From Tetmemena sp. SeJ-2015 (taxonomy: Eukaryota > Ciliophora > Spirotrichea > Sporadotrichida > Oxytrichidae), in NCBI GenBank assembly GCA_027382625.1, contig JAJKFJ010021618.1, positions 17,898-81,897 on the forward strand: a DNA stretch of 64,000 bases. The letters are read 5' to 3'. The stretch's first letter is position 1; each line of letters starts with the position of its first letter. This document shows, piece after piece, positions 37,477 to 40,418 of the stretch. A program made the position numbers and the translations under genes. Below the pieces are notes generated by a model, which made no database searches, was not told the DNA's origin, and worked only from the letters and a program-made list of their open reading frames with translations.

Positions 37477-38204
37477 AGCCAATCTGACCATTGCAGCGAT
37501 TCTTCTCTCCTGCTTGAATCTAACTAACTCTTTTGAGAGATGATCCATAGTTTTCGCGATGATTTCTGCTTGAAGAGCTTCGGCAGTACCTTCAAGAACT
37601 CTTAAATTTTTAATAATGCTGTGATTATCATTGTCATCTTTCTAGTCCTTAACTTCTTGCTATTCTATTGCAACATCATCTCAATTGCATACAAATGTGA
37701 GCTATTTCCTTCCTTGTAAGATTCTTTTTGAAAGTGAATTTCACTCTGTCTACACTAATCTTGCTTTCTTAATATATTGGGGAGAGTTCTGCTTAGATCT
37801 TAGAGACCTTGATATGTTGAAAGAGCTTCGGGCTAGACTTCATACTTATTAGCCTTTTTATCAAGAGATAAACCATCCCTTGTTATTGGTGCGTATACAG
37901 TTGAGCCAAAGTTCGCATAATCTTCAATTATATCTCTCTTCTTGCCTTTAATTTCCACATTCTTCCTAGCTTTGAACATTTTTCTTAGCACCTTGATTCT
38001 CTTTCTCTATATCTTAGCAAGGTGTCTCTCTTTGTGCTAATAAATTGCCTTTCTTCAGTTCTTTGAGCATGCTTTTCCAAATTCATTTTCTCTCTCGACT
38101 AAGGCACTTTGAAGAAATAAGAAATAGTCTCTCATTCTAGATACGCTTGATATATTCAAGTTCAAGATCCTAAGTTGCTCTTCCATTAGCTTTCTTCTCA
38201 AAAT
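37477..38204 (-). CDS. CFAP91: CFAP91 (MAATS1), even-numbered MDS block (MDS 2,4,6,8,10)
   Basis: Holds the pieces missing from the odd block at 38371-40418. MDS2 38204-38175 (ILRRKLMEEQ), MDS4 38136-38086 (MRDYFLFLQSALVERE), MDS6 38074-38050 (HAQRTEE), MDS8 38038-37775 (KERHLAKIQRKRIKVLRKMF and KKRDIIEDYANFGSTVYAP up to TYQGLQDLSRTLP) and MDS10 37602-37477 (RVLEGTAEALQAEI, MDHLSKELVRFKQERRIAAM). Each ends in the pointer that also ends or begins the matching odd MDS. MDS order within the block is ascending on the minus strand. Spacers between them are 38, 11, 11 and 172 bp. The last pointer is only 60 bp from the end of the plus-strand USP half. Confidence 0.92.
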
Positions 38205-38370
38205 AGTGAATTCTTTGTCAAAGGCTCTCTTTTCTCTCTCTTACAGTAAATAGCTATGGCTCTTCAATTCTCTCTTTAGCAGACAAACCAATTTTAAAAT
38301 TTAAGGATTGAGAGTTGCAAACTGTATTAAAATTTCAAGAATTTAGAAGATATAAATGCACTTAATTTAA

Positions 38371-40418
38371 TCATTAATTTGCATGTCTAGGATCGTATGA
38401 TAAAACATTTTCGCTCTCTAACTTTTGGCCTGCATTTGCAACTGAGCTTTAAATAGTCTTTCTTGCAGCCTCTAGGAATTTCTTTTCTTCGAATTAAACT
38501 AAAATGGTATGATCAATAGTATAATTAACTTACGTTATCTTTAGAGTTTCTTTCTCTACACATCAGGGATGAGGAACGAAGAGACAAGATCTTTGATGAG
38601 AACCTCTGGCTTATTTCTTTCTTCAGCTTTATCAATGAATTTGTTGAGTGTTTAAACCTTTAACTTTGCTTCTTCATATGCCTGGAGTGAAGAATAATTA
38701 AATTTTAATTCCATCATGAAAATATAAAGAGGTGTTGTCAATGGTGTTTGTTATAATATTTTGGAGATAAGAGTCAACAGATCCTTAATGTACTGACATG
38801 AGCTCCTTGTACAATACATCCTCTCTCTATCTTAGAATCTATTTGTCGTTCTTATATTAATTCTACCACTTTCCTCAGCTTCACGTCTTCTTCTAACATC
38901 CTCAGCCAATAATTCTTAGAAAAGAGTTTCTTTATCAAGAACTCTCTCTTGGTAGTTCTCAATTAAGACTTTTTCTTCTTCAAGATCAGAGGCTGCTTTC
39001 CATTCTTCAGTAGCTCTAAGCTCCGCAATAAGATCTAGTCTTTTTTCTTTACCCTCAAACATCATGTTTTGTTTAGCTCTACCCCTTAAGAGTCTCTGTA
39101 AAAGAATAATTGCTCTTTGTCTTTTGTCGTTGGTCTCAAGATTTTCTTTGTTATCCATTCTGACGAATTCCTTTGCAACTGGAGTTGGTGGTCTCACTTT
39201 AACATTCTTCAAGATGCTATCCTTGTCATCTAAAATGCAACATCAATAGTAGCTTGGGCCTTTTTAAGTGCAGCAATGTGAGTTTTCAATGCTTTCAATA
39301 ACTCTATTGGGGAGATAATAAAAATTATCTTACTTATTTTTTGTGCTCAGTCTTTTTCAACCTGATTTCTTCAAATAGAATAGCTTCTCCTCTGTTTCTT
39401 TTTCTCTCTTTATTAGTTTGAAGGAGATTAAGTCTCTCATTGGTTTAAATTGCTTGATATCCTCTTCTCTTTTATTCCACTCTCTGAACTCTTGCTCTTA
39501 CTTTTTATATCAAAATGAAGCAAGCCTCATCAGAAGTAGGAGGGAGAGCATTGTCAAATATATTTTCTCTCATTTATTCGATGAGTTCCATTTCTGCCAT
39601 GCTTGCTGGCAATCCTTTTCCATATTTCAAGTGAGCAATTGTGAGGACCTCAGGAGCGTTTTCTTTTTCAATGATGTACTCTGGGGTGAATGGATCAGTT
39701 TGAGCCTCGGATTCTCTAAAACACTTAAGATCTCAAAAAATCTCACCTGTAAATGGTCTGGATTTCAACAGTTTTGGCTTTTGGCTCTTGTCAATATATT
39801 TTTCATATCAAATGTTAATCTTTAGCAGACATGATCTTCTCTTCTGGGATTTGCATGACACTATAAGAAATATTTAAAATGACTGGAAAGTTACATTTCA
39901 GGAGGGACAGACTGCAAAACTGGGATGATGGGCCTCTTGAAGTATTTGTGTCTATAAGATAATTGAGCATTTTATTTTGATATCTCTACCTGAATTATAA
40001 GCAAATAGCAAAATGAAGATAATTAACTAAATTGACCTTGGACCATGGTCTCAATGGATCCCTGATAGCGGTTATCTTTGAGAATGTAGTTCATTTCTAC
40101 TTTGTTTGAAACTCTAGTTAAGATAAGAAGTTAAACGATGGATTACCCTCTTTAATTATATTGCAGATTATACAACTTAAAAATATAGTTATATTTTTAA
40201 TCTTTATTCCAATATTATAAATAAAATGATTCAAACTCTACCAAGCCTCATTAGATTTATCTATATCATTTTTTGCCAAATCAAAAGAAATAAATTTAAA
40301 ATATACTTAGTTGTTTTCATTAAAGATTGATATGATCATCATTTTAGGCAACTCCAAAATAAGCCCCAGAAGGATTATCAGGATTTAAGTTGCTAAAAGA
40401 AGTTTATTGAACAAACAT
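38371..40418 (-). CDS. CFAP91: CFAP91 (MAATS1), odd-numbered MDS block (MDS 1,3,5,7,9,11)
   Basis: CFAP91 is a radial-spoke/calmodulin-associated axonemal protein. MDS1 (about 40418-39510) begins [18 protein letters not shown] (start uncertain), with [45 protein letters not shown] and [20 protein letters not shown], all family landmarks. MDS3 39499-39431 ([15 protein letters not shown]), MDS5 39409-39383, MDS7 39373-39340 ([11 protein letters not shown]), MDS9 39315-38935 ([45 protein letters not shown]) and MDS11 38910-38371 ([48 protein letters not shown], ending DPRHANQ at TGA). Read straight through, the block skips whole conserved segments, which are found in the even block. One-base frame breaks near 39310 and 38822 remain. 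Confidence 0.92.
39227..39244 (-). other. Mini-IES (10 bp interior) in CFAP91 MDS9
   Basis: GATG at 39241-39244 and 39227-39230 flanks 10 bp. Removing one copy plus the interior gives [15 protein letters not shown] in frame with the following PPTP segment. Too short and lacking GT-AG borders for an intron. Confidence 0.65.

Follow-up and report, generated by a model that had tools for sequence, protein, structure and literature searches.

Two interleaved blocks of segments form a CFAP91 gene that is very likely scrambled in the probable germline DNA of the hypotrich ciliate Tetmemena sp. SeJ-2015

Within a 64,000-nucleotide stretch of DNA from the ciliate Tetmemena sp. SeJ-2015 (contig JAJKFJ010021618.1 of assembly GCA_027382625.1, positions 17,898 to 81,897; hereafter the window), we resolve the gene for CFAP91 as two blocks on the minus strand, which together hold 23 scrambled segments: 12 odd-numbered segments in the block 40094-38371 and 11 even-numbered segments in the block 38285-37437. 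Segment order is kept within each block, with the pointers running from 1 to 22 in both, and all of the scrambled junctions (22/22) carry a pointer, an exact maximal repeat of 4-13 bp; the aligner used here permits jumps only at exact repeats. Counting two ordinary internal eliminated sequences (IESs), the gene comprises 25 macronuclear-destined segments (MDSs). We consider it very likely that CFAP91 is here an odd-even scrambled gene; the genome is that of a hypotrich ciliate and probably the germline, or micronuclear, one.

A purpose-written aligner produced the map by following P0001, the closest homologue (626 aa), along the minus strand from 40450 to 37250. It can jump only where two positions carry the same exact repeat of 4 bp or more, longer repeats making the jump cheaper, and GT..AG introns of 15-150 nt may also be skipped. 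The EukProt label of P0001, 403368982, is presumably the GenBank number of an Oxytricha trifallax sequence. The best path runs from the ATG at 40094 to the TGA at 38373-38371 in an unbroken frame of 628 codons plus TGA, which is open when TAA and TAG are read as glutamine, and it contains 22 jumps between the blocks, two excisions within the odd block, and three introns. Its product is identical to P0001 in 578 of 628 alignment columns, with two gap columns. Including pointers, the segments range from 24 to 473 bp, and six of them (2, 4, 8, 9, 15 and 22) have just 7-9 nt between their own two pointers. The features are given below in the order of the rebuilt gene; marked are those missed in an earlier note on this DNA, which had divided the gene into 11 pieces, and those lost when jumps are charged at a stricter cost.

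39819..40094, minus strand: segment 1 (odd), with the ATG at 40094, one ordinary IES and one intron; ends in pointer 1, TGTCTGCTAAAGA (39819-39831)
39961..40029, minus strand: ordinary IES in segment 1, pointer TCAATT, 69 bp removed; the least certain excision, because the product exceeds P0001 by two residues at that place
39861..39894, minus strand: predicted intron in segment 1, 34 nt, GT..AG; also obtained with 3 of 7 other homologues (P0086, P0010, P0025)
38257..38285, minus strand: segment 2 (even), 29 bp including pointers 1 and 2; pointer 2, AAGAGCCA; previously missed
39563..39789, minus strand: segment 3 (odd), with one intron inside and pointer 3, GAGAGAAAA, at its end
39716..39746, minus strand: predicted intron in segment 3, 31 nt, GT..AG; also obtained with 5 of 7 other homologues
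38215..38238, minus strand: segment 4 (even), 24 bp, with 7 nt between pointers 3 and 4; pointer 4, TTTGACAA; previously missed; lost at the strict cost
39510..39558, minus strand: segment 5 (odd), with pointer 5, ATTTTGA, at its end
38175..38204, minus strand: segment 6 (even), 30 bp; pointer 6, AAGAGCAA
39452..39499, minus strand: segment 7 (odd), 48 bp; pointer 7, ATATCAAGC, previously missed
38126..38153, minus strand: segment 8 (even), 28 bp, with 8 nt between pointers 7 and 8; pointer 8, AATGAGAGACT, crossed in the direction opposite to that given earlier
39417..39441, minus strand: segment 9 (odd), 25 bp, with 7 nt between pointers 8 and 9; pointer 9, CTTCAAA; lost at the strict cost
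38086..38114, minus strand: segment 10 (even), 29 bp; pointer 10, AGAGAGAAAA
39383..39409, minus strand: segment 11 (odd), 27 bp; pointer 11, AAGC, at 4 bp the shortest; lost at the strict cost
38050..38074, minus strand: segment 12 (even), 25 bp; pointer 12, TGAAGAAA
39340..39373, minus strand: segment 13 (odd), 34 bp; pointer 13, AGCACAAA
37775..38038, minus strand: segment 14 (even), 264 bp; pointer 14, TCTCCCCAATA
39290..39315, minus strand: segment 15 (odd), 26 bp; pointer 15, GAAAGCA; start of the earlier piece 9
37694..37768, minus strand: segment 16 (even), 75 bp; pointer 16, CTCACATT; previously missed; also seen by tblastn
39236..39282, minus strand: segment 17 (odd), 47 bp; pointer 17, TGATGTTGCA
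37631..37678, minus strand: segment 18 (even), 48 bp; pointer 18, AGATGACAA; previously missed; also seen by tblastn
38935..39231, minus strand: segment 19 (odd), 297 bp; pointer 19, AGAGTTCTTGA
37477..37602, minus strand: segment 20 (even), 126 bp; pointer 20, ATTGGCT
38861..38910, minus strand: segment 21 (odd), 50 bp; pointer 21, TGGTAGAA, previously missed
37437..37462, minus strand: segment 22 (even), 26 bp, with 9 nt between pointers 21 and 22; pointer 22, AATAGATTC; previously missed, lying outside the interval then given
38371..38843, minus strand: segment 23 (odd), with one ordinary IES and one intron; ends at the TGA, 38371-38373
38690..38726, minus strand: ordinary IES in segment 23, pointer TCTT, 37 bp removed
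38499..38533, minus strand: predicted intron in segment 23, 35 nt, GT..AG; also obtained with 5 of 7 other homologues

The protein read from this map matches the Pfam CFAP91 family (PF14738) over the entire model (1-153 of 153; E 6.2e-53; score 179.4 bits, with the cut-off at 27), and its homologues align lengthwise in the woven order, as in the CFAP91 family as described for Tetrahymena Cfap91 (PMC9776847); unlike the family as described there, the gene lies in pieces in this DNA. When four unwoven frames were scanned against Pfam, one matched CFAP91 at E 1.7e-23 and three gave no match. Identity of the mapped protein is 92% to P0001 over the full length, 67% to a Euplotes crassus protein and 56% to a Stentor protein, and among the 120 matches listed there is none at or near 100% that might come from the same species. 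Many of these 120 homologues sit on contigs of ~2.0-2.4 kb, roughly as long as a chromosome bearing CFAP91 alone should be, which is suggestive only.

The threading score is 2668.4 with jumps versus 701 without them, and it drops by 7.8-30.4 when any single jump of the 24 is disallowed. When the even block is replaced by dinucleotide shuffles (100 in total), the score reaches 1797.8-1852.4 with 444-466 identical residues, as compared with 2668.4 and 578 for the real block. In a repeat-blind test, jumps were placed with repeats ignored and the longest same-diagonal match was scored for those between blocks; with P0001, 12/14 such jumps coincide with a repeat of 7 bp or more, a property of 0.27% of random pairs. 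Scoring the blind jumps exactly at the jump site was set aside (10/20 in the register of the map with P0001 at cost 20, fewer otherwise), as its outcome is unclear: a jump can drift by a few bases, and some of the jumps are skips inside one block. Of the 24 jumps, six longer homologues recover 24, 23, 19, 19, 17 and 20 at the main cost; for a fragment of 283 aa the figure is 14/14. At the strict cost, the homologue jumps that match the strict map number 9/9 (P0086), 15/16, 15/16, 14/16, 14/16, 9/11 and 9/12.

Several outcomes of the same tests weigh against the map. Shuffled even blocks still yield 27-43 jumps, 6-22 of them between blocks, and thus the jump count by itself is no evidence. The repeat-blind proportion is 8/10 at a higher cost and 6/8 at the highest, and with other homologues it is 6/10 (P0010) and 6/12 (the Euplotes protein). 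At the main cost, each of the six longer homologues adds 9-21 jumps that are absent from the map, at places where it has diverged. With P0001 at the strict cost, 18/24 jumps are kept, one spurious jump appears, and 6/22 scrambled junctions disappear, namely those at segments 4, 9 and 11. These six are the least certain of the map; we retain them because the local stretches then fit the homologue and each has its repeat. Junction 10 (AGAGAGAAAA), although lost with P0001 at the strict cost, is recovered there with all six longer homologues, as one of their jumps that do not match the strict map.

When compared to the earlier note, the map agrees in kind: the identity of the gene as CFAP91, its odd-even scrambling, the placing of both blocks on the same strand and the presence of pointers at all junctions had been recognized correctly. 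Both copies of all 10 pointers then reported lie where they were placed, each as a maximal exact repeat, and tblastn bears out that a straight reading of the minus strand passes over conserved CFAP91 stretches that stand in order in the second block; tblastn of P0001 against the window also finds second-block pieces beyond those used at the time. The number of pieces differs: it was put at 11 MDSs and is 23 scrambled segments, or 25 MDSs with the two ordinary IESs. Nine of the ten proposed junctions stand as given, and 12/22 had been missed. The remaining one (AATGAGAGACT, proposed as junction 3/4) is real but was assigned the wrong direction: it was taken to lead from odd to even, whereas the map crosses it from even to odd, between two junctions not seen before (ATATCAAGC and CTTCAAA). 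Near it, the earlier weave misreads a stretch of protein on which the map and the homologue agree.

That weave had been described as one frame, off by a single base at junction 8/9 only. With TAA and TAG taken as glutamine it does yield CFAP91 over long stretches, but it breaks the frame at 8/9 and again within its piece 9, which corresponds to three odd segments (15, 17 and 19) with the even segments 16 and 18 interposed. The slip at 8/9 vanishes because four junctions had been missed there, and segment 14 joins segment 15 in frame. With its frame broken twice and one stretch misread, the 11-piece weave was rejected, as was the idea that segment 14 ends in a 19-nt intron, which might have mended the slip: such an intron would delete conserved coding sequence, and it is unnecessary because segments 15-19 restore the frame without it. 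Hand-joined across its two breaks, the earlier weave matches 7 distinct sequences among solved structures, all of them CFAP91 or CFAP91-domain proteins, the best being Tetrahymena chain 8tek_M (E 2.1e-97). The interval also changes, from 40418..37477 to one in which coding starts at 40094 and the even block reaches 37437. We found no homology for 40418-40095, and the open reading frame (ORF) scanned at 40468-40091 has no Pfam match. This 125-aa open frame (40091-40468, minus strand), which had been counted in CFAP91, lies directly upstream of the CFAP91 start.

Two observations had been named in advance as contrary to scrambling, namely homologues whose motifs follow the unwoven order and a macronuclear or cDNA sequence colinear with the window. 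The CFAP91 homologues follow the woven order, and in the window's own assembly each block matches solely at this place, with no other copies of either. The second result also bears on the possibility that the two blocks are decaying tandem copies of CFAP91, pseudogenes shaped by chance losses from which no working gene is built. The blocks do adjoin on the same strand, and odd-even loci are held in PMC9797194 to originate most probably by local duplication. Yet jointly they give the whole protein in an unbroken frame with nothing double except the pointers, an exact repeat stands at every junction, and 92% identity to P0001 is unlike decay; the single matching place in the assembly for either block points the same way, although somatic DNA could be missing from that assembly. 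We regard decaying copies as very improbable.

The three predicted GT..AG introns imply that CFAP91 transcripts are spliced anyway, and splicing or trans-splicing of RNA, in place of DNA joining, might be what unites the pieces. The exact repeats of 4-13 bp at 22/22 junctions instead suit pointer-guided DNA joining, since splicing needs none, and the alternating two-block order is that of the DNA-scrambled genes described in PMC9797194 and PMC5940158; the chance that RNA joining accounts for the locus is, in our judgment, slight in the extreme. Pointer-guided DNA joining would explain why the junctions carry exact repeats, which RNA splicing and decayed duplicates both leave unexplained. As for the contig itself, the 146-Mb assembly is broken into 5213 contigs, and a misassembled segment order might be considered, but this would need 22 cuts in one gene, all at exact repeats, with the pieces sorted alternately in order, and we give it a probability close to nil.

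We propose that the CFAP91 segments are joined at the 22 pointers in the developing somatic nucleus. The rejoining would occur on the level of DNA, with one pointer copy kept per junction and the spacers between segments eliminated. Segment order may be guided by template RNA, as reported for Oxytricha, in which joining of this sort is described as programmed by template RNAs (PMC9797194). Once rebuilt, the gene would encode CFAP91, a protein of the radial-spoke base.

Scrambled ciliate genes are already known as a kind, and the CFAP91 locus is another member, cut more finely than first reported. As in the odd-even genes described for Oxytricha trifallax and Tetmemena sp. (PMC9797194, PMC5940158), the odd MDSs form one cluster and the even MDSs another, and the pointers fall within the usual 2-20 bp; CFAP91 differs from the odd-even genes presented in these two sources in being another gene. 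Its pointers spell the word 1..22 1..22, which belongs to the repeat words defined in PMC5940158, and the 25 MDSs of its coding part compare with a mean of 9.7 over 15,811 contigs given there for O. trifallax. The odd-even loci described for Euplotes woodruffi (PMC9797194) likewise have two clusters with exchanged MDS/IES pairs; set against them, CFAP91 has pointers of 4-13 bp and a similarity of cores that is not beyond shuffles. Among the papers listed by our literature search, none brings together CFAP91, ciliates and scrambling, although supplements may contain annotations of the orthologous germline loci in Oxytricha and Tetmemena.

Probably the gene was duplicated locally and its two copies then decayed reciprocally, leaving the two-block layout. 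Local duplication is the origin favoured in PMC9797194, where, on the prediction of Feng et al., a duplicate of MDS n gave rise to the spacer that separates MDS n-1 from MDS n+1, and where exchanged pairs in Oxytricha and Tetmemena are reported to show a weak positive length correlation. CFAP91 shares this weak correlation: over 21 exchanged MDS/spacer pairs, the Spearman coefficient for length is 0.49 (p=0.025), or 0.44 (p=0.047) for cores alone. Matched cores also beat mispaired ones (40/1000 as good), but this control is affected by length. Against a duplication stand two results. Taken per half, the length correlation is 0.45 (p=0.16) and 0.62 (p=0.055), neither significant, and a search of the spacers for relics of the lost copies found a similarity to the replaced segments that was not above shuffles (814/1000 as good). 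The length and core results suit an old duplication without proving one.

CFAP91 itself lies between two parts of what is probably one ubiquitin-specific protease (USP) gene, which we locate by the UCH profile.

35068-37438, plus strand: USP first half, with UCH positions 1-163 of 254 at ~36236-37405
~48.2-48.8 kb, minus strand: complementary USP second half, with UCH positions 115-254 of 254
51287-51162, minus strand: weak match to the USP middle, E 0.037; with it, the second part is taken as 51287-48223

The two halves stand on opposite strands ~11 kb apart, with CFAP91 and a HATPase_c domain between them. Because complementary UCH halves flank it on opposite strands, CFAP91 probably sits inside a split and inverted USP gene; two separate USP genes in place of one split gene are the alternative. 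A search for a pointer between the halves found no convincing one, and a USP segment map was abandoned, as the homologues are too distant and three threading runs gave inconsistent jumps. The arrangement resembles the nested, or Russian doll, loci described for Oxytricha (PMC5940158), in that CFAP91 likewise stands between two opposite-strand USP parts. Unlike the loci described in that source, the USP parts are here without a joining pointer that we could find, and nesting is no more than likely.

Other features accompany the USP parts. The first half contains two likely small ordinary IESs at 36068-36110 and 36362-36381 (plus strand; words AAAGTT and TAATC), obtained with 3/3 homologues. The stop codon that closes its open frame (37436-37438, plus strand) runs into the end of CFAP91 segment 22 (37437-37462, minus strand), and thus the two genes abut without a spacer. 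The HATPase_c match between the USP halves (42049-42267, minus strand; E 4.2e-18) indicates a further gene there. Finally, between the two parts of the USP second half, G+C content at 49000-50750 is 40-56%, versus mostly 28-38% in the rest of the window, and the ORFs scanned in this region have no Pfam match.

Elsewhere in the window, three open frames each encode part of a domain.

13572-14504, plus strand: partial kinase domain, profile 140-262 of 263
18330-19394, plus strand: partial PIP5K domain, profile 5-167 of 288
781-1926, minus strand: partial ion-channel domain, profile 3-80 of 241

The missing parts of these domains may lie in other MDSs. An Rfam scan of the window returned no family, and a search of the window for CCCCAAAACCCC allowing one mismatch found none.

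Duplication and nesting can be put together in a single history, which we offer tentatively as possible: most of CFAP91, the part corresponding to homologue residues ~55-497, would once have been a tandem duplicate, in which complementary losses left only the pointers doubled and a perfect odd-even word of 22 pointers, with no more than 7 nt between the pointers of the smallest segments, and the whole locus would lie in one eliminated stretch of a USP gene whose inverted half is 11 kb off.

The map is an exact and testable description of a finely cut scrambled germline gene. Segments as small as these are easily overlooked, 12/22 junctions having been missed by eye, which led to a false frame slip, and 6 by the aligner at the strict cost. 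With cores of 7-9 nt in some of its segments, the locus allows the minimum length for correct placement to be probed. If CFAP91 does sit within a split, inverted USP gene, one 16-kb stretch of the germline would need to be untangled at two levels.

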